DNA of 64,000 nt from Pirellulales bacterium (lineage in GTDB: Bacteria > Planctomycetota > Planctomycetia > Pirellulales > Thermoguttaceae), in contig JAFGDS010000042.1 of assembly GCA_016931995.1 (NCBI GenBank), positions 186,001 to 250,000 on the forward strand. Reading direction: 5' to 3'. Of this stretch, positions 3,872 to 14,972 are shown piece by piece. Every line of letters begins with the position of its first letter. Position 1 is the first letter of the stretch. A program made the translations under genes and the position numbers. A model generated the notes under the pieces. It did no database searches. It had not been told where the DNA came from and saw nothing but the letters and a program-made list of their open reading frames with translations.

Positions 3872-5416
3872 ATGACCACCCCCCCGACGCCGCATCTGCC
3901 CGACTTCGACGCCTTTGCCCGGCTGGCCAAGGACGCCGACCTCGTGCCCGTCTACCGCCGCCTGGTCAGCGATTCGCTCACGCCGGTCTCCGCGTTCCAC
4001 AAGATCGACGCCGGCCGGTGCGCGTGCTTCTTCGAAAGCGTGATCGGCGGCGAGAAGGTCGGACGGTACAGCTTCCTCGCCACCGAGCCGTATCTCGAAA
4101 TCGAAGCCTACGGCCATCGCGTCACGATCAACGACACCTCGGGCGTGTCGGCCTCCGGCGCGCCGATCCTGCGCACCCGGCAGTTCGAGTCGGACGATCC
4201 CTTGGACGAACTCCGCCGCCGCGTCGAGTCGGTCCGCGAGGCCCGGCTGCCGGGGTTGCCGCCGTTTGTCAGCGGCGCGGTGGGCTACGCCGGCTACGAC
4301 GTCGTCCGCTGGGCCGAGCACCTGCCCCACGCCCCGGCCGACGACCGCCAGGTGCCCGATCTGGCCTTCGCCTTCTACGACCAGATGGTCGTCTTCGACA
4401 ACGTCACCAAGACGCTCGTCGTCGTGGCCATGGCCCGGCTCGACCGGCCGGGCGTCGACCTCCGCCGCGCCTACGACGACGCCTGCCGCCGCGTGGATGC
4501 CCTGGTGGCCCAACTGGCCGACAAGCCCTCGGCCCTCAAGCCCGTCGATATCCGCGCCGACGCGCCGGTGACGCTGCCCTACCAGTCGAATTTCACCCGC
4601 GAAGGCTTCGAGCAGGCCGTCGGGCGGTGCGTCGAGTACATCCGCGCCGGCGACGTCTTCCAAGTGGTCCTCAGCCAGCGACTGGAAGTGCCCCTGCGGG
4701 CGCATCCATTCGAGATCTACCGAACGCTCCGCGTCGTCAATCCCAGCCCGTTCATGTTCTACGTCCGCACGCCGAGCGTCACGCTCGTGGGCAGCTCGCC
4801 CGAGGTCATGGTTCGGGTGGACGACGGGCTGGTGACGGTCCGCCCCCTGGCGGGCACCCGCCGCCGCGGCCCCGACGAACAAGAGGACCGCCGCCTGGCC
4901 GAGGAGCTTCTGGCCGATCCCAAGGAGCGGGCCGAGCACGTCATGCTCGTGGACCTGGGCCGCAACGACGTCGGCCGCGTCGCCCAATTCCAAAGCGTCC
5001 ACCTCTCCGACGTGATGACCATCGAGCGGTACTCGCACGTAATGCACATCACCTCGAACGTGACCGGCCGCCTGCGCGACGACAAGACCGCGTTTGACGC
5101 CCTCCAGGCGTGCCTGCCCGCCGGAACCGTTTCCGGCGCGCCCAAGGTCCGTGCGATGGAAATCATCGACGAACTGGAGCCGCACCGCCGCGGGCCGTAC
5201 GCCGGCGCCGTCGGCTACGTCGATTTCAACGGCAACATGAGCACGTGCATCGCCCTGCGGACGATCGTCATCCAGGAGAACAAGGCGTACGTCCAGGCCG
5301 GCGCCGGCATCGTGGCCGACAGCGTGCCGGCCAACGAGTACCAGGAAACGCTCAACAAAGCCCGAGGGCTCCTGGCCGCCATCGAGATCACCGAGAGCCG
5401 CGTCGGGCGGGACTGA
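3872..5416 (+). CDS. trpE: anthranilate synthase component I
   Basis: Converts chorismate and ammonia (from the TrpG glutaminase) to anthranilate, the first step of tryptophan synthesis. The 514-residue length is normal. The C-terminal chorismate-binding domain is complete: [68 protein letters not shown] and [16 protein letters not shown]. The order and wording fit TrpE rather than PabB. I start at ATG 3872 ([13 protein letters not shown]) because the GTG at 3839 sits in a dispersed repeat. No trpG or other trp gene is adjacent; trpD lies 21 kb away on the other strand, so the pathway genes are scattered in this genome. Confidence 0.95.
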
Positions 5417-5445
5417 GCCGCGCCAGCTTCACCGCGAGCCGTATC

Positions 5446-7317
5446 ATGGAAGGATCCCGGATCGTGAGAGTCGTCCTCGCGGCGGCGCTGGGCGTGCCCC
5501 TGCTGGCTTGCCCCGCGCTGCTTCGCGCGGGAGATCCGTCGGGCGCCGCTGGAGAAGCCCGCAGCGCCGCCCCCGCGAACGACGCGCCCTTGGACGATGC
5601 CGTCGCGCGGTTGGGCGTCCTGGCCACTCGCGGGCCGCGGCAGTGCCAGGAGAAATGGGAGCCCACGGTCCGGTATCTCTCGGCCACGATTCCCGGCCAC
5701 ACGTTCACCCTCCGCCCGCTCGCCTACGACGAGGTCGGCCCCGCCACGGCCCGCGGCGAGCTGGATTTCGTCCTGACCAACCCCTCCCTGTACGTCGAGC
5801 TCGAACGGCTCCACGGCGCGGTGCGGATCGCGACGCTTCAGAATCTGCATGAAGGGAAGCCCTACTCCGTCTATGCCGCCGCCGTGTTCCGCCGATCGGA
5901 TCGCGAGGACCTCCGCGGACTGGCGGACCTGAGGGGCAAAACCCTGATGGCCGTCGAGGAGTGGTCGCTGGGCGGCTGGCAAATGGCCTGGCGCGAAATG
6001 AAGGACCGCGGCATCGATCCCTACCGCGATCTTGCGCGGCTGGAGTTTGCCGACACGCACGACGCCGTGGTCCATGCCGTCCGCGATGGCGTGGTCGACG
6101 CCGGCGTGGTCCGCGCCGACGTCCTGCCCCGAATGGCCGCCGAGAACAAGATCCGCCCGGAAGACTACCGCGTGCTCGATCCACGCGAAGGCGCCGACGC
6201 ACCCCTGCCTTTTCCCTGTTCGACGCGGGCGTATCCGGAATGGCCGCTGGCCAAGACGCGGGCCACGTCGGACGAGCTCGCGCGCAAAGTGGCCATTGCC
6301 CTGCTGGAGATGCCGTCGGACGCCCCGGCGGCCCAGGCGGCCGGAATCGCCGGCTGGGGCATTCCGCGGAACTACCAGCCGGTCCACGAATGCCTGAAAT
6401 CGCTCCAGATTGGGCCGTACGCGGACGTCGGAAAAGTGACGTTCACCGCGGCTGTAAGGCAGTACTGGCCGTGGCTGGCGGGGTTTGCGATGGCGCTGAT
6501 CGCGACGGCCGGCGTCTCGGCGTACGTGGTGCGGCTCAACCGTCGGCTTGGGCAGGCGGTCGTGCGCTACCAAAGCGAATCCGCCGAGCGTGCCCGGGCG
6601 GAAGAGGGATTGCGCAGGAGCGAGCAGCTTCGTGCCACGTCGGAGAAACTCGCCGCGGTGGGGCGTCTCGCCGCCGGCGTTGCCCACGAAATCAACAACC
6701 CCCTGACGGGCGTCCTGACGTTCGGCCATCTCCTGGCGGAAAGACCGAACCTGACGGACCAGGATCGGCGGGACCTGGACGTTGTGATTCGCGAGACGAC
6801 CCGCGCCGGCGATATCGTTCGCAACCTGCTCGATTTTGCCCGCGAGCGGCCCGTCGAGCGTCGCCCCGTCGCGATTCACGACGTCATCCGCCGGGCCGTG
6901 CGGTTGCTGCACGGACAGAAGGCGTTTGGACGGATCGCGCTGGTCGAGCGGTTCGCCGAGAGCTTGCCCGAAGTCGAAGGAGACGAAAACCAGCTTCAAC
7001 AAGTTGTATTGAATCTGCTGCTGAACGCCTGCGCCGCCATGCCGCGGGGCGGAACGCTCGCCGTCGGAACGGCGGCGCGCGACGGCAACGTGCTCGTCAC
7101 CGTTGCCGACACGGGCACGGGCATCAAGCCCGAATACATCCCCCGGATCTTCGAGCCTTTCTTCACAACGCAAGAGATCGGCAAGGGAACCGGCCTGGGG
7201 CTAAGCGTCAGCTACGGCATCGTCCAACAACACGGCGGCACGATTGAGGTGGAGAGCACGGAAGGAAAGGGAACCACGTTCACCATCCTCTTGCCCGGCA
7301 AATCGACGTCAGCCTGA
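5446..7317 (+). CDS. TtrS-like sensor histidine kinase with PhnD-type binding domain
   Basis: A 623-residue membrane kinase. A signal peptide (about 6-28) leads into a periplasmic phosphonate-binding-protein-like domain (about 54-315; ARLGVLATRGPRQCQEKWEP and FVLTNPSLYVELE are close to the wording of the tetrathionate sensor TtrS). A membrane helix (about 342-362), a short coiled coil and a kinase core follow, with His414 in GVAHEINNPL, the N box NLLLNACAAM, and ADTGTGIKPEYIPRIFEPFF plus GTGLGLSVSYGIV. An NtrC-type regulator follows 106 bases downstream, forming a two-component pair. The ligand is unknown: TtrS binds tetrathionate, but PhnD-type sensors vary. The hydrogenase operon next door makes a redox or H2-related signal plausible. 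Confidence 0.9.
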   Translation: MEGSRIVRVVLAAALGVPLLACPALLRAGDPSGAAGEARSAAPANDAPLDDAVARLGVLATRGPRQCQEKWEPTVRYLSATIPGHTFTLRPLAYDEVGPATARGELDFVLTNPSLYVELERLHGAVRIATLQNLHEGKPYSVYAAAVFRRSDREDLRGLADLRGKTLMAVEEWSLGGWQMAWREMKDRGIDPYRDLARLEFADTHDAVVHAVRDGVVDAGVVRADVLPRMAAENKIRPEDYRVLDPREGADAPLPFPCSTRAYPEWPLAKTRATSDELARKVAIALLEMPSDAPAAQAAGIAGWGIPRNYQPVHECLKSLQIGPYADVGKVTFTAAVRQYWPWLAGFAMALIATAGVSAYVVRLNRRLGQAVVRYQSESAERARAEEGLRRSEQLRATSEKLAAVGRLAAGVAHEINNPLTGVLTFGHLLAERPNLTDQDRRDLDVVIRETTRAGDIVRNLLDFARERPVERRPVAIHDVIRRAVRLLHGQKAFGRIALVERFAESLPEVEGDENQLQQVVLNLLLNACAAMPRGGTLAVGTAARDGNVLVTVADTGTGIKPEYIPRIFEPFFTTQEIGKGTGLGLSVSYGIVQQHGGTIEVESTEGKGTTFTILLPGKSTSA

Positions 7318-7358
7318 GCGCGGCGAAGGATCTCGTGGACGGTGAAGAAGCTGGGTGC

Positions 7359-7382
7359 CATGTCCACGCTTGCCTGGACATG
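7359..7382. repeat. GTCCAC-hairpin repeat, copy 2
   Basis: CATGTCCA and TGGACATG flank an eight-base loop between the kinase and regulator genes. The preceding GGGTGCCATGTCCACGCTTG matches copy 1 before trpE. Confidence 0.55.
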
Positions 7383-7423
7383 CCGCCCGCACCCGATTAG
7401 GGATCAACCAGAAGGCGACGCGC

Positions 7424-8842
7424 ATGACCATCTCCCAAACGGAGTCGAACGCCCCCGCGATCGGCCAGCGGATCCTCGTCATCGACGACGAGCCCGTGGT
7501 CGGTGAAAGCTGCCGACGCGGACTCGCCGCCGACGGACACGACGTGGACGTGTCCGCCGATCCCCGCGCCGGATTGCATGCGGCTCTGTCGGGTGAATAC
7601 GACCTGCTCCTCGTCGATCTGATGATGCCCGATATCGACGGGTTCGAGGTGCTCAAACAGGTCAAGGCCGCCGGCGTCGCCTGCGAGGTGGTGATCATCA
7701 CGGGCTATTCGACGGTGGAGTCGGCCGTCGAGGCCATGCGGCAAGGCGCCGCGGACTATCTGAGCAAGCCGTTCTCGCCCAACCAACTCCGCATGGTGAT
7801 CCAGAAGGTCGCCCAGCGATCCGCCCTGATCCGCGAGAATGGCCGGCTTCGCCAGGAATTGCAGTTGCACCAGGGATTCGAAGGCATCCTCGGCGAAAGC
7901 CGCGCCATGGAGCAGGTCTTCTCCTTGATCCGGCGCGCCGCCCCCACCAACGGGACGGTGCTCATCTCCGGCGAGTGCGGCACGGGCAAGGAACGGGTCG
8001 CCCGAGCCGTCCATCGCTTGAGCCGCCGCAAGGACGGCCCCTTTGAAAACCTCGACTGCGCCGCGTTGGCCCCCGCCGCCGTGGAACGCGAACTGTTCGG
8101 CGAGCCCGGAACGACAAGGCAAGGCCTCTTCGACGCCGCGCGCGGCGGCACCGTCTTTCTCGACGACGTGAGCCGTCTCGGCCTCGAAGCGCAAGGCGCG
8201 CTTCTGCATTTCCTCGAAACGGGCGGCTCGACCCGATCGCCAAACGCCGCGGAACGACCCCAAGACGTTCGCGTCATCGCCGCCGCGAACCGCGACCTGA
8301 CCGCGATGATCGACGAGGGGGAGTTCCGCAAGGAGTTGTATTATCAGCTCAATGTGGTGCCGATCTACCTCCCGCCGCTGCGGGAGCGATCCGGCGACGT
8401 TCCGCTTCTGGCCGTGGCGTTCCTTGATCGCTTTTGTCAAAAAAACGGCGTCGAGCCCAAGACCTTCTCGCCCGAGGCCCTGGCGAGGATGGAAAGCTAC
8501 CGCTGGCCCGGCAACGTCCGCGAGTTGCGCAACGTCATCGAGCGGATCGCGATTCTCTGCGAGTCGAATCGGATCGACCTTGGCCACCTGCCGCCGGAGG
8601 TCCGCCAGACGCCTCCGCGATCGCCCGGCGTGCCGCTGCCGGCCAGTTGGGAGGAGTTCAAGCGCCTCAAACAGCAGGTCCGCGACGCCGCCGTGCAAGA
8701 AATGGAGCGCCGGTTCCTGATCGACGCGCTGCGCCGATCCGGCGGCAACGTCAGCCGCGCCGCCGAGGACGTGGGCATGCAGCGGACCAATTTCCACGCC
8801 TTGCTGCGGAAATACGGACTCAGCTCGGATCTCGATCCATAG
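7424..8842 (+). CDS. NtrC-family response regulator without GAFTGA loop
   Basis: Likely partner of the TtrS-like kinase. The 472-residue protein has a receiver (DD at 21-22, phospho-acceptor Asp65 in LLLVDLMMPDIDG, Lys115), an AAA+ domain with Walker A GECGTGKE (183-190) and Walker B GGTVFLDDV (241-249), and a Fis-type helix-turn-helix at the end (GGNVSRAAEDVGMQRTNFHALL). The sigma54-contacting GAFTGA segment, expected after ELFG, is missing: the sequence runs ELFGEPGTTRQGLFDAARGG. HupR of Rhodobacter capsulatus, a hydrogenase regulator of this family, works with sigma70 polymerase, so a similar mode is possible here. Start ATG 7424 is chosen because it begins just before the receiver; the longer frame enters a repeat. 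Confidence 0.92.
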   Translation: MTISQTESNAPAIGQRILVIDDEPVVGESCRRGLAADGHDVDVSADPRAGLHAALSGEYDLLLVDLMMPDIDGFEVLKQVKAAGVACEVVIITGYSTVESAVEAMRQGAADYLSKPFSPNQLRMVIQKVAQRSALIRENGRLRQELQLHQGFEGILGESRAMEQVFSLIRRAAPTNGTVLISGECGTGKERVARAVHRLSRRKDGPFENLDCAALAPAAVERELFGEPGTTRQGLFDAARGGTVFLDDVSRLGLEAQGALLHFLETGGSTRSPNAAERPQDVRVIAAANRDLTAMIDEGEFRKELYYQLNVVPIYLPPLRERSGDVPLLAVAFLDRFCQKNGVEPKTFSPEALARMESYRWPGNVRELRNVIERIAILCESNRIDLGHLPPEVRQTPPRSPGVPLPASWEEFKRLKQQVRDAAVQEMERRFLIDALRRSGGNVSRAAEDVGMQRTNFHALLRKYGLSSDLDP

Positions 8843-8846
8843 CCCC

Positions 8847-8900
8847 GTGTGCCACTAACTCCGCCAGTGCCTGGCCGTGTGCCACCGGCTCCGCCAGTGC
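8847..8900. repeat. CACTGGC/GCCAGTG repeat, two tandem copies
   Basis: Two directly repeated units, GTGTGCCACTAACTCCGCC (8847 on) and GTGTGCCACCGGCTCCGCC (8877 on), each ending in AGTGC. They belong to the dispersed palindromic family found at 13682, 36816, 38862, 42926, 57636, 59771, 60602 and 60892. Unlike most other sites, the two units here point the same way. Confidence 0.75.
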
Positions 8901-9251
8901 CGCGCCCCGGCGCCAGGCGAAGCGTTCTCTTCGCTACCTCCTGGCTTCGCGATCACGCGGATTAAGAGCCTATCCGAAAACCCATGTGGCAAAGCCCGAG
9001 GCACGCATGCGATCGCGAGTGACTTCCCCAAGAACACCACATAAAACGCTGTATGGGCGCGTCATACACCGTGCGTCGCGTCCGTACACACACCCGCTTG
9101 GACGACGTCGCTCGCTTCATACGCGATGAAGAATCGTCACGGTCGCGCGTGCGCGGTTCCTTCGCGAAGGGGGATAGCGCGCCCCGATGCCTTTTGGGCG
9201 AAAAAAACTCCCGCCACTTCTTTCGCGCCGACCTACGTTTCCCTGGACACC

Positions 9252-9274
9252 CCCGAACCCCGTTTCGGGTTTTT
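9252..9274 (+). terminator. terminator-like hairpin upstream of hydrogenase
   Basis: CCCGAA (9252-9257) pairs with TTCGGG (9264-9269) over a six-base loop and is followed directly by five T. It has the form of a short intrinsic terminator. It could end transcription from the regulator gene or act as an attenuator in the hydrogenase leader. Confidence 0.5.
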
Positions 9275-9280
9275 GGACAC

Positions 9281-9306
9281 GACGGACCAAAGGGATTTGG
9301 TCCGTC
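9281..9306. promoter_or_regulatory. perfect 11-bp inverted repeat in hydrogenase leader
   Basis: GACGGACCAAA (9281-9291), loop GGGA, TTTGGTCCGTC (9296-9306): every base of the two 11-base arms pairs. It starts 12 bases after the first hairpin's base and ends 77 bases before the large-subunit ATG. It is not a member of the dispersed repeat families seen elsewhere in the window, which favours an operon-specific role such as operator, RNA hairpin or attenuator. Confidence 0.55.
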
Positions 9307-9383
9307 CGTCCAAATTATTTCCACGCGAAGGGACGTTCGACAAACCAACCGCTTCCGACGCGATTGAATCGAGGAGCACGCGC

Positions 9384-10913
9384 ATGACCCGTACGGTATC
9401 TCTCAGCCCGTTGAACCGCATCGAGGGCCATCTCTCGGTGCACACCGACACGGAGCCCATCGACGGCGGCAAGTCCTGCCGCGTGAGCGAGGCGCGTTGC
9501 GAGGGCGAGATGTTCCGCGGCATCGAGGGCATCCTGACCGGCCGCGATCCCTTGGACGCCCAGCAGATCACGCAGCGGATCTGCGGCGTGTGCCCCATCT
9601 CGCACGGCACCGCGTCCGTCCGCGCCCAGGAGATGGCCTACGGCATCGCGCCGACGCACAACGGCCGGCTCCTTCAAAACCTGATCTTCGCGGCCAATCA
9701 GCTCCATTCGCACATCCTGCACTTCTACCACCTGGCCGCGCTCGATTTCACCGACGTCAAGGCGATTCTCAAATACTCGGGAAAAGACCGCACGCTTCTG
9801 GCGTTTCAGGCCTGGGCCAAGAATGCCGTGGAATCGAAGGACGTGTTCCCCGCGGCCCCCTTCCTGCCGCAATGGGACGGCAACTACGCCGAGGACGTGG
9901 ATTTCAACGTCAGCCTGATCGCCCACTATATCGAGGCCCTGGAGATCCGCCGCACGTGTCACGAGATGGGCGCCGTGTTCGGAGCGCGGCTTCCGCACTC
10001 GACCGCCCTGGTGCCCGGTGGATGCACCCAGACGCCCACGCTGGAGCGGATCCTCGCGTACTCGTCTCGGTTGAAGCGGGTATTCGCGTTCATCCGCGAC
10101 GTGTACGTGCCCGACCTCTTGCAGGTGGCCAAGGAGTTTCCGCAGTACTTCGAGATCGGACGCGGCTGCGGCAATTTCCTTTGCTTCGGCGTGTTTCCGA
10201 TGGACAACGCCGGCAACAAACACGTCCGTCCCGGCGTGGTGATCGACGGCCGCTGGGAATCGCTCGACCCGTCGAAGATTTCCGAGGAGATCGGCCGGTC
10301 GCGTTACGCCGCCGGCCCGCCCAGCCATCCCTTCCAAGGCCGCACCGAGCCGGAACCGAACAAGAGCGGCGCGTACAGTTGGATCAAGGCCCCGCGCTAC
10401 GACGGCCACGTCATGGAGGTCGGTCCCCTGGCCCGGATGATGGCCAACTACCACGACCCAAGCGACACGCCGCTGAAGAAAGAGCTGACCGCGTTCCTCG
10501 CGTCGCAAAACCTGACCCCGGACAAAATGGCGTCCGTCCTGGGCCGGCATGCCGCGCGAGGGCTGGAGTCGCTCTGGATGGCCCGCCAAGCCGGCCAGTG
10601 GCTCGACGAACTCCGCGCGGACGAACCGCCCGCGCAAGATTTCGAGATTCCCAAGCAGGCATCCGGCTTCGGCCTGACCGAGGCGCCCCGCGGCGCGTTG
10701 GGCCACTGGATCACCATCGAAAACTACCGCATCAAACACTATCAGTGCGTCGTACCCACCACGTGGAACTGCTCGCCGCGCGACGACAAGGGAAACCCCG
10801 GCGCCGTGGAGCAGGCCCTGGCGGGCATCACCATCGAGAATCCCCAACAGCCAATCGAAATCGGCCGCGTGGTCCGCTCGTTCGACCCGTGCCTTGCCTG
10901 CGCGGTTCATTAG
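9384..10913 (+). CDS. [NiFe]-hydrogenase large subunit lacking C-terminal extension
   Basis: Catalytic subunit of an H2-oxidising or H2-sensing enzyme, 509 residues. Both pairs of Ni-Fe ligands are present: L1 motif RICGVCPISH (Cys67, Cys70, His74) and L2 motif DPCLACAVH (Cys503, Cys506). The protein ends on the His of the L2 motif. Most large subunits carry a further peptide there that a specific protease removes after nickel insertion; its absence is a hallmark of regulatory H2 sensors (HoxC/HupV). Start ATG 9384 (MTRTVSLSPLNRIEGH) follows a GAGGAG site; the longer frame runs back through the hairpin leader. The large subunit precedes the small subunit, opposite to the usual order. No maturation genes (hyp) are in the window. 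Confidence 0.95.
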   Translation: MTRTVSLSPLNRIEGHLSVHTDTEPIDGGKSCRVSEARCEGEMFRGIEGILTGRDPLDAQQITQRICGVCPISHGTASVRAQEMAYGIAPTHNGRLLQNLIFAANQLHSHILHFYHLAALDFTDVKAILKYSGKDRTLLAFQAWAKNAVESKDVFPAAPFLPQWDGNYAEDVDFNVSLIAHYIEALEIRRTCHEMGAVFGARLPHSTALVPGGCTQTPTLERILAYSSRLKRVFAFIRDVYVPDLLQVAKEFPQYFEIGRGCGNFLCFGVFPMDNAGNKHVRPGVVIDGRWESLDPSKISEEIGRSRYAAGPPSHPFQGRTEPEPNKSGAYSWIKAPRYDGHVMEVGPLARMMANYHDPSDTPLKKELTAFLASQNLTPDKMASVLGRHAARGLESLWMARQAGQWLDELRADEPPAQDFEIPKQASGFGLTEAPRGALGHWITIENYRIKHYQCVVPTTWNCSPRDDKGNPGAVEQALAGITIENPQQPIEIGRVVRSFDPCLACAVH

Positions 10914-10970
10914 TCCATTCACAACATCTCCAAGAACGGGCGCTCCTCGCGCCTCGTGGGAGTATCCATC

Positions 10971-11930
10971 ATGCAAAACTGCAATCGAAGAGACGTTCTC
11001 CGCATGGGGGCGAGCCTGGCGGCGGGCATGGGCCTCTCGGCGTGGCACGGCGACATCTTCGCCAAAGGGCTCGACGAAATCGCCGCCGGACGCGCCAAGG
11101 TGCTTTGGCTGGAGGGCATGTCCTGCAGCGGGTGCTCCGTCTCGCTCCTGAACGCCGAGGATCCCGGCCCCGTCGAGGTCCTCACCGAATTGATTTCGCT
11201 CGTGTACCACCCCGTGCTCTCGGCCATCCAGGGCGCCGACGCCGTCGAGGTGATCCACAAACAAGTGGAAGGAGGCGACTACCTCCTCGCTTTCGAAGGC
11301 GCGATCCCGACCACCATGCCCGGCGCCTGCCTCATGGAAGGCAAGCCCTTGGCCGAAATCCTGCCGGCGGCCCTTCGCGGCGCGAAAGCCGTCGTGGCCG
11401 TGGGCACGTGCGCCTCGTTCGGCGGTATTCCCGCCGCAGAGGGAAATCTGACCGGCGCCGTTTCCGTCCGCCAATTCATGGAGCAGCAGGGGCTGCCCGT
11501 CGAGGGACGCCTGGTCAATTGCCCAGGCTGTCCCACCCACCCACAATCGCTCCTGGGCACGGTCGCCTACGTGGCGGCCAAGGGCTATCCCCCGGTCGAT
11601 CCCACGCTGCTGACCCCCAACATGTTCTACGCCCACTCCGTGCACGACGAATGCCCCCGGTTCCACTACTGGGAAAAACGCGTCTTCGCGGAAAAGTTCG
11701 GCGACGAAGGCTGCCTGTTCAAACTCGGCTGCCTGGGGCCCTTAAGCCATACAAACTGCCCTCGGTCGCAATGGAACAGCGGCGCGAACTGGTGCATTCG
11801 GGCGGGCGCGCCCTGCACCGCGTGCACCAGCGAGAATTTCGCCCGAAAACGCGATTTCCCCTTCTACCGGAAATGTGAAACCTACTACACGGCAAGCTAT
11901 ACCGAAGCGGATCGACAAGGGGTCTCATGA
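10971..11930 (+). CDS. [NiFe]-hydrogenase small subunit with Tat-like signal
   Basis: Iron-sulfur electron-transfer subunit, 319 residues. The N-terminus [17 protein letters not shown] (5-21) resembles a twin-arginine signal, suggesting export with the large subunit. Proximal cluster ligands are CSGC (52, 55), Cys147 in VGTCASFGG and Cys184 in NCPGC (Cys187 is also there). Distal ligands are His225, Cys228, Cys248 and Cys254. The medial site has Cys263, Cys282 and Cys285 plus a fourth Cys275, where standard group 1 enzymes have Pro; this suggests a [4Fe-4S] rather than [3Fe-4S] medial cluster. There is no C-terminal membrane anchor. ATG 10971 is preferred over the GTG at 10956. Its stop overlaps the start of the chemotaxis receptor. 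Confidence 0.94.
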
Positions 11931-13624
11931 TGAAAATCAACGTTCACAGCCTGGCCACCCGCATCGGTGGCGCTATCCTGTCGGTGTTCGTCCTGGTAAC
12001 CCTGGCCCTCTCCGGACTGCAACAATACCTGTATCAGCGGAACATCGACGGCGTTCTGACCGAGGTCAACCAGTCCGTGTCGGAACTGAAACGCCAGGAC
12101 GCCCTCGACTTGCTCCACGAGGTCAAGCTGGCCACCAAAGGATCACTCGAGCGCGGCGAATACGCCAAGTTCACGTCCTACGCCCAGGAGCAGGCCAAAC
12201 TGAAGGAGATCCGCGAGTTCTCCTTCATCGGCGCGAACCAGAAGGTCGAACTCTCGTCCAAGCCCGATCGGGTCGGCGCCGCGCTCGACGGCGAACTCTG
12301 GCACAACATCGTGGCCAGCGACAAGCTCGTGGTCCGCGAATCCGACGACGCGTTTTGCTTCTACGATCCCCTTCGGGTGGACGCCGACATGCACCGGCTC
12401 TATCCCAACCGGAAGGTGGGCAACGTCTACGGAGTGCTCTATCTCGATTTCTCGAAAGAACGGATCAAGGAAATGCTGGCCACGGCCCGCGCCCACTGCG
12501 ACGCCTCGACCCGCAAGTCGATGGGCCTTTGGGCCGCGTTCGCCGCGGTCGCGTCCTTGGGCGTCGTCGCCGTCGCCTGGTTCGTCTCCCGGCGGATCAC
12601 CAAACCGATCGCCCAGGGCGTGGCCTTCGCCCAAAAAATGGCCAACGGCGACCTCACCCAAACGCTCGCCACGCGGGGTAAGGACGAAATTGCCCAGCTC
12701 GGCACGGCGCTGAACCACATGGGCTCAAGTTTGCGGACCATGTTCGGCAAAATCCGCGACGCCGCCGCCTCGCTGGGCGAATCGTCCAATCAGCTCTCGG
12801 CCACCTCCACGCAAATGGCCGCCGGCGCCGAGGAAACCACCACCCAGTCCGGTAGCGTCGCCGCCGCCGCCGAGGAACTCTCCCTGACGATGCAACGCAT
12901 GGCCGACGCCACCGAGCAGATGACGGCCAACGTCCGGTCCGTTGCCGCCGCCGCCGAGGAAATGACCACGAGCATCGCCGAGGTGACCCAAAGCGCCGAT
13001 CAGGCCGCGCGCGTCGCCGGCGACGCCAACCAACTCGCCCTGGCCAGCAACGAACGCATCGGCGAACTCAGCGCGTCGGCCGAGAAGATCGGCCAAGTGG
13101 TGGGCATCATCCAGGACATCGCCGAGCAGACGAATCTCCTGGCCCTGAACGCCACCATCGAGGCCGCCCGCGCCGGCGACGCCGGCAAGGGCTTCGCCGT
13201 CGTGGCCACCGAGGTCAAGGACCTGGCCAAACAGACCGCGACCGCCACCGAGGACATCGGCCGACAAATCGAGGAAAACCGGAAATCCATCGTCGCCGCC
13301 GTTCACGCGATCCGCGAAATCAGCGAGATCATCGAGCAGGTCAACGGCGTCTCGACGACCATCGCCACGGCCGTCGGCGGGCAGCGGGCCATGACCCAGG
13401 AAATCGCCCAGAATATCGCGCAGACTTCAACCATGGCGGAGTCCGTGTCGGAGAGCATCGTCCAGTCGGCCTCCTCCAGCCAGGAGATCAGCCAAACCGT
13501 GACCCACGTCGATACGGCCGCGAAGCAAACGGCCCAAGGCGCCGCCCACACCCAATTGGCCGGCCAACAGCTCGCCCAACTGGCCGAACAGCTCCAGTCC
13601 ATGGTCGCCCAATTCCAGGTCTGA
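11927..13624 (+). CDS. methyl-accepting chemotaxis protein coupled to hydrogenase
   Basis: Membrane chemoreceptor of 565 residues: first helix about 13-35, a periplasmic domain of about 165 residues, second helix about 199-221, HAMP (about 221-275), then a long coiled-coil signalling domain whose conserved tip ([18 protein letters not shown], about 401-418) binds CheA and CheW. The periplasmic domain is the size of a single Cache or helical-bundle sensor; I do not recognise a specific ligand motif. The ATG overlaps the small-subunit stop as ATGA, so the two are almost certainly translated together. This pairing suggests that the receptor reads the state of the hydrogenase. No che genes are nearby. 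A GC-rich hairpin at 13638-13663 follows. Confidence 0.95.
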
Positions 13625-13637
13625 TCGCCGCGCAGCT

Positions 13638-13663
13638 CCCCTCTCCCGCTCGCGGGAGAGGGG
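13638..13663. repeat. CCCTCTCCCGC/GCGGGAGAGGG palindrome
   Basis: A near-perfect GC-rich palindrome 14 bases after the receptor stop. A related sequence (CCCCTCTCCCGCAAGCGGG) lies at about 36910-36930, so it is a dispersed element; it has no T run but could still help end transcription. Confidence 0.55.
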
Positions 13664-13681
13664 TCGCGCGGTGAGGGGACG

Positions 13682-13746
13682 GTGTGCCACTGGCTTTGCC
13701 AGTGTTGAATTCTCGGGATCCTCAAGCACTGGTAACGCCCGTGGCA
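13682..13746. repeat. CACTGGC/GCCAGTG repeat pair
   Basis: GTGTGCCACTGGCTTTGCC on the left and GCACTGGTAACGCCCGTGG on the right face each other across about 22 bases. Member of the dispersed palindromic family; the right unit is degenerate. Confidence 0.65.
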
Positions 13747-13850
13747 CTTGGAGAGCCCGTGGCGGCCGGCGCGTGACGTGGTACAATGGCAACCCGTCGC
13801 CGGCCTCGCGCCGGCGCGTGCCATCCATTCCGCCACGCCCTGGGCGCCCC

Positions 13851-14972
13851 ATGAAGATCGACGCCATCGACCTGTACCACTTGGCCCTCCCGCTTGCCCG
13901 ACCGATCCGCGCCGGCGACGGGAAGCAGCCCTGGGAGCGACTGGAAACGGTGCTCGTCCGGATCCGAGGCGGCGCGGTGGCCGGTTGGGGCGAGGCCAGC
14001 CCCGGCACGTCGCCCACCGCCAGCGGTCAATGGGCCGCCGGCGCGTTTGTTTGCCTGCGCGATTGGCTCGCGCCCACCCTTGTTGGCCGCGACGTTGCCA
14101 GCGGCGACGCGCTTCAAGAACATCTCGCCGCGTTCCGCGGCAACCAAGAAGCCAAGGCCGCCCTGGACGTGGCCTGGTGGGACCTTTCAACCCGCCTGCA
14201 AGATCGGCCATTGCAAGACGCCCTGGGCGGTCGCCGCAACGCAATCGAGGTGGGCCGATGCCTCGATCAGATGGATTCGATCGAGGAGTTCCTTTCGACC
14301 GCCCGGCAACTCGCGAGGGATGGTTTCTCGCGGCTGGAACTCAAGTTCCGCCCCGGCTGGGACTTCGCCATGCTCAACCGTATTCGCCAGGAATTGCCCG
14401 AGCACGCGCTGCACATCGACTGCGAGGCCGGCATGAACCTGGGCCACATGGAGCTGTTCTGCCGGATGGACGACTTTGGGCTGGCCATGGTCGAGCAGCC
14501 GCTGCCGGCCGACGACCTGGTGGGACACGCCATGGTCCGCCAGACGATCCGCACGCCCGTCTGCCTCGACGAGAGCATCGCCTCGCCCGCCCAGGCCGAA
14601 ATGGCCCTCGACCTGCAAAGCGGCGGCTGGGTAAACGTCAAGATCGGCCGCGTCGGCGGAATCACGCCCGCCGTGGCCATCCACGATCTGTGCCACGAGG
14701 CATGCGTCCCCTGCTGGGTAGGATCGCTGCTGGCGACGTCGATCGCCGCTCGGGCCGCCATGGCCTTGGCCGCGAAGGAGAACTTCTCTTACCCCGCCGA
14801 TTTTCCGCCGGCCGAAGGCTATCTTGCCCCCGAGCACGACCCCGCCGCGCCGCCCGAACTGGCGCTCGACGACGGCAAGCAAAAAGTCCGCCTCTGGAGC
14901 GAGCCCGGCCTGGGCGTCGAGCCGGATATGGAGCGTATCGAGCGATTCTGCGTGGCCCACGCCGCGCTATGA
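13851..14972 (+). CDS. enolase-superfamily enzyme, OSBS/N-succinylamino acid racemase type
   Basis: Metal-dependent enzyme of 373 residues in the muconate-lactonising subgroup of the enolase superfamily. Metal ligands are Asp190, Glu215 (MVEQPL) and Asp240 (CLDES). The catalytic lysines are Lys165 in RLELKFRPGWD and Lys264 in NVKIGRVGG. The usual KxK of o-succinylbenzoate synthase is ExK here, with the second, catalytic lysine kept. The wording around FRPGWD fits the OSBS/NSAR branch, whose members make o-succinylbenzoate for menaquinone or racemise N-succinyl amino acids. No other menaquinone gene is near, so I leave the reaction open. The ATG at 13851 is chosen because the longer frame runs into a repeat. 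Confidence 0.85.
   Translation: MKIDAIDLYHLALPLARPIRAGDGKQPWERLETVLVRIRGGAVAGWGEASPGTSPTASGQWAAGAFVCLRDWLAPTLVGRDVASGDALQEHLAAFRGNQEAKAALDVAWWDLSTRLQDRPLQDALGGRRNAIEVGRCLDQMDSIEEFLSTARQLARDGFSRLELKFRPGWDFAMLNRIRQELPEHALHIDCEAGMNLGHMELFCRMDDFGLAMVEQPLPADDLVGHAMVRQTIRTPVCLDESIASPAQAEMALDLQSGGWVNVKIGRVGGITPAVAIHDLCHEACVPCWVGSLLATSIAARAAMALAAKENFSYPADFPPAEGYLAPEHDPAAPPELALDDGKQKVRLWSEPGLGVEPDMERIERFCVAHAAL

Follow-up and report, generated by a model that had tools for sequence, protein, structure and literature searches.

The stretch of DNA analysed here (hereafter the window) comprises 64,000 nt of the forward strand of contig JAFGDS010000042.1 (positions 186,001-250,000) from the Pirellulales bacterium assembly GCA_016931995.1. 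Its locus of interest consists of three genes on the plus strand which, according to the translated open reading frames, form one operon in the order hydL-hydS-receptor. hydL (9384-10913) encodes the 509-residue large subunit of a [NiFe] hydrogenase with the motifs RICGVC and DPCLAC, the protein ending in DPCLACAVH immediately before the stop codon. The 319-residue small subunit encoded by hydS (10971-11930) contains the Pfam domains Oxidored_q6 and NiFe_hyd_SSU_C, while the third gene (11927-13624) encodes a methyl-accepting chemotaxis protein (MCP) of 565 residues. The receptor ATG (11927-11929) and the hydS stop codon (11928-11930) overlap in the sequence ATGA (11927-11930). Translation thus confirms the initial annotation of this DNA, which had described hydrogenase and full MCP as one operon sharing these four bases; the word “fused” in its title is correct for the translational overlap and incorrect for the proteins, which are separate. 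A second possible receptor ATG is present at 11930, and AAGGGG at 11917-11922, as read from the sequence, is a candidate Shine-Dalgarno site of the receptor.

HydL matches the Pfam family NiFeSe_Hases (PF00374) with 505.6 bits (cut-off 25.8) and NF033181 with 617.2 bits (cut-off 600), as expected of a complete [NiFe] large subunit. Its closest sequences in the PDB are periplasmic [NiFeSe] hydrogenases, yet HydL contains no selenocysteine, DPCLAC being coded with ordinary Cys, and its score against the NiFeSe-specific NF045518 (519.5) stays below the cut-off of 780. The catalytic and Fe-S ligand motifs of the hydrogenase look complete. HydS contains an NWC motif whose cysteine, present in the [NiFeSe] relative as well, we take to be a ligand of the medial cluster. 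In several of the related loci introduced below the second cysteine of the HydS CxGC motif is replaced, by Glu in L044 and L089 and by Asp in L051, L052 and L053, giving an unusual Fe-S ligand set. The Tat-like signal which the initial annotation had attributed to the small subunit is borne out by pattern matching: the twin-arginine motif NRRDVLRMG lies within a signal region at 10971-11066, the end of which is approximate as it was assigned by pattern.

The receptor is composed of a first transmembrane segment (TM1), a periplasmic sensor domain, a second transmembrane segment (TM2), a HAMP domain (residues 219-270, 12581-12736; PF00672, 45.6 bits) and an MCP signalling domain (residues 355-530, 12989-13516; PF00015, 113.7 bits), the transmembrane segments having been placed by eye. 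No Pfam family, Cache families included, matches the periplasmic part of about 165 residues at E 0.001, and the best hit among solved structures by sequence (E 0.098) is unrelated. The fold model of this domain (approximately residues 35-200, 12029-12526) matches the Cache-type domains of WalK, KinD, DctB and CitA in both Foldseek and VIA-align searches, the best VIA match reaching a Z score of 12.9 with an rmsd of 3.4 over 131 residues. On the basis of this model we assign the domain to the Cache fold, more precisely as single-Cache-like. Alignment of 11 receptors places the invariant residues within the first helices, at LSS, and within or next to a loop of the pattern DADMxRxxP. In the window this signature loop reads DADMHRLYP (residues 152-160, 12380-12406) and occupies the columns of the CxxCH heme motif of related domains.

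Counting the window, 23 loci in 22 genomes combine hydL and hydS with a receptor that has the same Cache domain. Adjacency in this assembly only, which the initial annotation had named as speaking against its reading, is contradicted by the 22 further loci. These counts were made after discarding L046, in which hydL is cut by the contig end so that the receptor is unseen, as well as L047 and L048, which equal L039 and L040; the genome of L041 (G509) was taken to be identical to G1213 because of the same contig number and coordinates. hydL homologues are present in 6 of 119 genomes of the family at E 1e-40 and in 21 of 392 genomes of the phylum at E 1e-60, and nine named hydL loci are assigned to Pirellulales, Planctomycetota, Phycisphaerae, Phycisphaerales and Lentisphaerae. 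At 15 of the 23 loci hydS and the receptor gene share the four-base stop/start overlap, and at six the two genes overlap by 11 bases or are separated by 2 to 82 bases; the remaining two are L043, with the receptor gene located upstream of hydL, and L095, with a damaged receptor gene. Leaving the window aside, tblastn detected an MCP signalling domain at 20 of the 22 linked loci, the misses being L041 and L042, whose contigs end inside the receptor gene. All 12 linked receptors that were scanned proved to be MCPs. The same search found no such domain at 17 loci encoding relatives with a C-terminal extension of the large subunit (see below) within the stretch read, some of these contigs being short or cut near hydL (e.g. 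3.1, 6.3 and 7.4 kb).

The linkage was examined from the side of the receptor as well. The N-terminal 205 residues of the receptor, used as query, gave eight matches in 7 of 392 phylum genomes, all eight adjoining hydL. With a profile (A2) built from 11 linked receptors, which for this reason match by construction, 13 matches in 13 of 397 genomes of the class were obtained, each next to hydL, while in the family 5 of 119 genomes matched, four of the matches adjoining hydL and one (G090) being an orphan. The phylum, class and family samples overlap in part, four genomes of the class search being shared with the phylum search. In a survey of 9 kb on each side, in which gene kinds were judged by eye and the near copies L091, L093 and L053 were left out, only hydL, hydS and the receptor gene were common to 20 of 20 loci; the next sense-strand family, response regulators, occurred at seven.

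A C-terminal extension past the histidine of DPCxxCxxH is missing (0 residues) from all 23 linked large subunits and likewise from that of L049, whereas the 16 extension-bearing planctomycete relatives that were measured carry 13 to 22 residues there. A seventeenth (L036/L106) has 19 when read through a stop; this second, extension-bearing hydrogenase gene of its genome (L106, G326:C29) shows TGA at a position where relatives have a Trp codon. The window's own genome also encodes two distant [NiFe] large subunits (G000:C117 and G000:C39) with extensions of 28 and 38 residues. In a quick tree of 40 rows, from which L032, L036, L046 and L062 were left out and which included no group 2 sequence, the 23 extension-less rows (22 linked and L049) form one group with an SH-aLRT support of 99. 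Within it L096 splits off first (support for the remainder 81) and L055 next (remainder 97). The missing extension, which the initial annotation had taken as the mark of H2-sensing enzymes, is thus real; by itself it is no proof of sensing since, according to PMC7294309, extension-less large subunits also occur in groups 2b, 2d, 4c, 4e and 4g. As the reported extension-less cases are those groups, a Tat-exported, [NiFeSe]-like one appears unusual.

Two features of the small subunit were compared across the linked loci. The window shares the twin-arginine motif with 20 of the 22 other linked HydS; of the remaining two, L094 contains it in the right frame and L062 reads TRQD. Sequence comparison furthermore reveals a conserved C-terminal tail (residues 300-319, 11868-11927) which runs past the aligned end of [NiFeSe] small subunits. 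It is kept in 20 of 23 linked loci (in L062 partly), among them L043 with its upstream receptor, and is absent from the unlinked set L049, L056, L057 and L058 (none of four). Across the nine HydS sequences of alignment A3, seven tail positions from Y299 onward are invariant. The C-terminus of hydrogenase small subunits lies near the electron exit, which would fit docking at this tail, and we regard it as a candidate receptor-docking element.

Chemotaxis genes are also found near the pair. A single strand of L055 (G241) reads CheW-CheA-CheB-CheR-hydL-hydS-MCP-second MCP. About 1 kb ahead of hydL, L039 has a lone receiver-domain regulator, which is adjoined by a divergent CheA-CheW-MCP-MCP cluster. 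In the window's own genome the 25 kb preceding hydL contain CheA, CheW, CheR and two receptors, so that CheA and CheW partners for the MCP are present. HypD is encoded there too, and a gene of the FHIPEP (FlhA) family suggests flagella.

We consider hydrogenase and receptor to be a dedicated sensory pair, in which the receptor would physically read the periplasmic HydLS and signal H2 or its turnover to CheA, and we put the probability of this reading at roughly two in three. As a dedicated pair, the hydrogenase-chemoreceptor module put forward by the initial annotation is strongly supported by the linkage at 23 loci, the specificity of the receptor, the locus with che genes and the che and FlhA-family genes of the own genome. 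In the mechanism which we propose, the HydLS heterodimer would mature in the cytoplasm and then be exported via the Tat pathway on the signal of the small subunit. In the periplasm it would dock onto the co-translated receptor at the Cache domain, with the extra HydS tail as the probable point of attachment. The docked complex may then change as H2 is oxidised or as the Fe-S chain alters its redox state, and this change would travel via TM2 and HAMP into the signalling domain, thereby setting CheA activity. Contact between the proteins, tail docking, the H2 response, control of CheA, the loss of heme considered below and a motility output which would steer cells toward H2 are what we infer from the sequences. 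We know of no identified H2 receptor.

Several observations weigh against this reading. The conservation of the tail is imperfect, as it is short in L054 and L096 and different in L055, and its end, DRKG, coincides in part with the probable ribosome site of the receptor gene, so a constraint at the nucleotide level may explain these residues; L043, in which the receptor lies upstream, still keeps the tail end despite that order. The TRQD signal of L062 lacks the second arginine. In L095 the receptor frame beside hydS (8659-10150) contains an in-frame TAG, attributable to decay or sequencing error. In G090 (L113, 8163-10220) the same receptor domain occurs without a neighbouring hydrogenase, and this genome is missing from the six of the family in which hydL was detected at E 1e-40. 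Conversely, L049 (G026) carries an extension-less hydrogenase inside the clade, but no receptor follows it and the sensor finds no match in this genome; as hydL begins at the contig end, the upstream side lies outside the contig. In the phylum of the Lentisphaerae locus L045, profile A2 gave four matches in 3 of 387 genomes, only one of which adjoins hydL, the other three being c-heme receptors located elsewhere. The sensor model is of moderate quality (mean pLDDT 66, with core blocks of ten residues at 67 to 88), that of HydS (mean pLDDT 53) being too poor for use. Finally, CxxCH is absent from the window sensor, and the c-heme structures 3b42 and 5b82 rank low among its Foldseek matches (E 1e-3 and 5e-3) and do not appear in the 50 VIA rows listed.

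A rather improbable alternative to the dedicated pair is energy taxis without contact: HydLS would be an ordinary periplasmic uptake hydrogenase, the receptor would sense a diffusible product such as local redox, a reduced carrier or protons, and the operon would only match the amounts of the proteins. The seemingly complete catalytic and Fe-S ligand motifs of the window and the periplasmic nature of the closest solved relatives agree with it, as does the fact that, according to PMC12889525, Cache domains were held to be ligand-binding. It accords poorly with the restriction of the common neighbourhood to these three genes and with the finding that both the HydS tail and the loss of the extension go with the receptor. 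That the receptor senses something else, e.g. a small acid, NO or O2, and shares its operon with the hydrogenase as a result of shared regulation appears clearly less probable still. NO-sensor properties are attributed by PMC12889525 to c-heme Cache domains that are fused to signalling modules, the fold resembles the ligand-binding Cache domains of KinD, DctB and CitA, and G090 possesses the receptor without the hydrogenase; yet most matches of the domain occur together with this hydrogenase, and L043 preserves the pair in a different gene order. Chance adjacency or an assembly artefact, which the origin of all named contigs from metagenome-assembled genomes might suggest, we reject as having a negligible probability because the pairing recurs at 22 further loci, the 23 loci being spread over 22 genomes of several families with a conserved overlap.

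Returning to the dedicated pair, the loop DADMxRxxP provides indication of how it may have arisen. CxxCH is absent from the window and from 20 of the 21 other linked receptors which reach the loop, and binding of heme by the window sensor was ruled out on this ground. The hydrogenase-linked receptor of L096 and three unlinked receptors bear CxxCH at the very columns of DADMxRxxP, and the window sensor aligns with CxxCH-bearing receptors around the loop without gaps. Since L096 branches early, the simplest history is that of an ancestral heme receptor which lost its heme in the window's lineage, the branching support being modest. The L096 receptor does not match PF11845 at E 0.01, and its filing under sCache_heme is therefore not established. 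The sCache_heme receptors GSU0935/GSU0582 and Tll0287 (PF11845) are represented by 3b42 and 5b82 among the Foldseek matches of the window sensor. PMC12889525 reports CxxCH to be conserved in 99% and 99.4% of that family, in contrast to its absence here. A c-type heme able to take electrons from the hydrogenase was probably present in the ancestral receptor, whereas the conserved protein loop at the heme site of the window's branch makes a conformational readout more likely. A tentative extension of these ideas, against which the odds stand somewhat, would be that an exported [NiFe] hydrogenase serves as a ligand-reading chemoreceptor subunit, H2 being sensed by the periplasmic complex, and that the system began with the reduction of a c-heme Cache receptor whose heme was later lost in favour of direct protein readout via the DADMxRxxP loop and the HydS tail. 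As to other receptors of this kind, the distant c-heme receptors of G785 and G794 have no hydrogenase beside them, and one of these, the c-heme Cache-like chemoreceptor in L073 (8159-9739), adjoins two multiheme cytochromes with b561-type domains (9840-14453), perhaps a parallel redox-partner receptor.

Among known systems, the group 2b regulatory hydrogenase HoxBC with its histidine kinase HoxJ shares with the window a two-subunit [NiFe] hydrogenase coupled to a signal transducer and a large subunit without C-terminal extension (according to PMC7294309 and PMC6978683). HoxBC, however, is cytoplasmic and acts with its kinase on transcription, while the window encodes a Tat signal, a [NiFeSe]-like enzyme and a transmembrane chemoreceptor; an assignment to the HoxBC type was ruled out by the Tat signal and by the partner being an MCP instead of a HoxJ-type kinase. 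In the HydDB table (PMC5037454), [FeFe] group C2 is listed as putatively chemotactic, [NiFe] group 2b as H2-sensing and group 2c as a putative sensor. The C2 enzymes are, like the window pair, proposed to act via methyl-accepting chemotaxis proteins; they are unrelated, their role is given as putative in that table, and the window enzyme is [NiFe] and exported. HydL and HydS match [NiFe] families only, by which C2 membership was rejected. The statement of the initial annotation that no such sensor pair had been described consequently holds in part: no [NiFe] hydrogenase-chemoreceptor pair was found among the matches listed in the open-access literature (titles and beginnings of abstracts), but a chemotactic role had already been suggested for [FeFe] C2 (PMC5037454). 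A methanogen is reported to show H2 taxis (Brileya et al. 2013, as cited in PMC4266047). Compared to the periplasmic [NiFeSe] hydrogenases 5jsu and 1cc1, the closest solved relatives of both subunits by sequence, the window differs by cysteine in place of selenocysteine, the extra HydS tail, the missing large-subunit extension and the linked receptor.

Directly before hydL lie a histidine kinase gene with a phosphonate-binding-type domain (5110-7317) and a sigma-54 activator gene (7355-8842). A conserved upstream two-component regulator was considered and rejected, as related kinase frames were seen near only 4 of the 20 loci surveyed and regulator frames near 7 of them, and the ones scanned are of other kinds. 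No sigma-54 promoter was found between 8842 and 9384; the whole window gives 22 matches against 22.9 expected. The 16-base sequence TGCCACTGGCTTTGCC occurs at 13685, 36863 and 59772 of the window, on both strands, and is perhaps a dispersed intergenic repeat.

With its tail and loop, the pair constitutes a defined two-part candidate for an H2 receptor, found in planctomycete genomes and in one assembly from Lentisphaerae. If the proposed reading is true, hydrogenase-based sensing would reach beyond gene control in the cytoplasm to behaviour governed from the periplasm, and a route from a heme redox sensor to an enzyme-reading sensor would become apparent.

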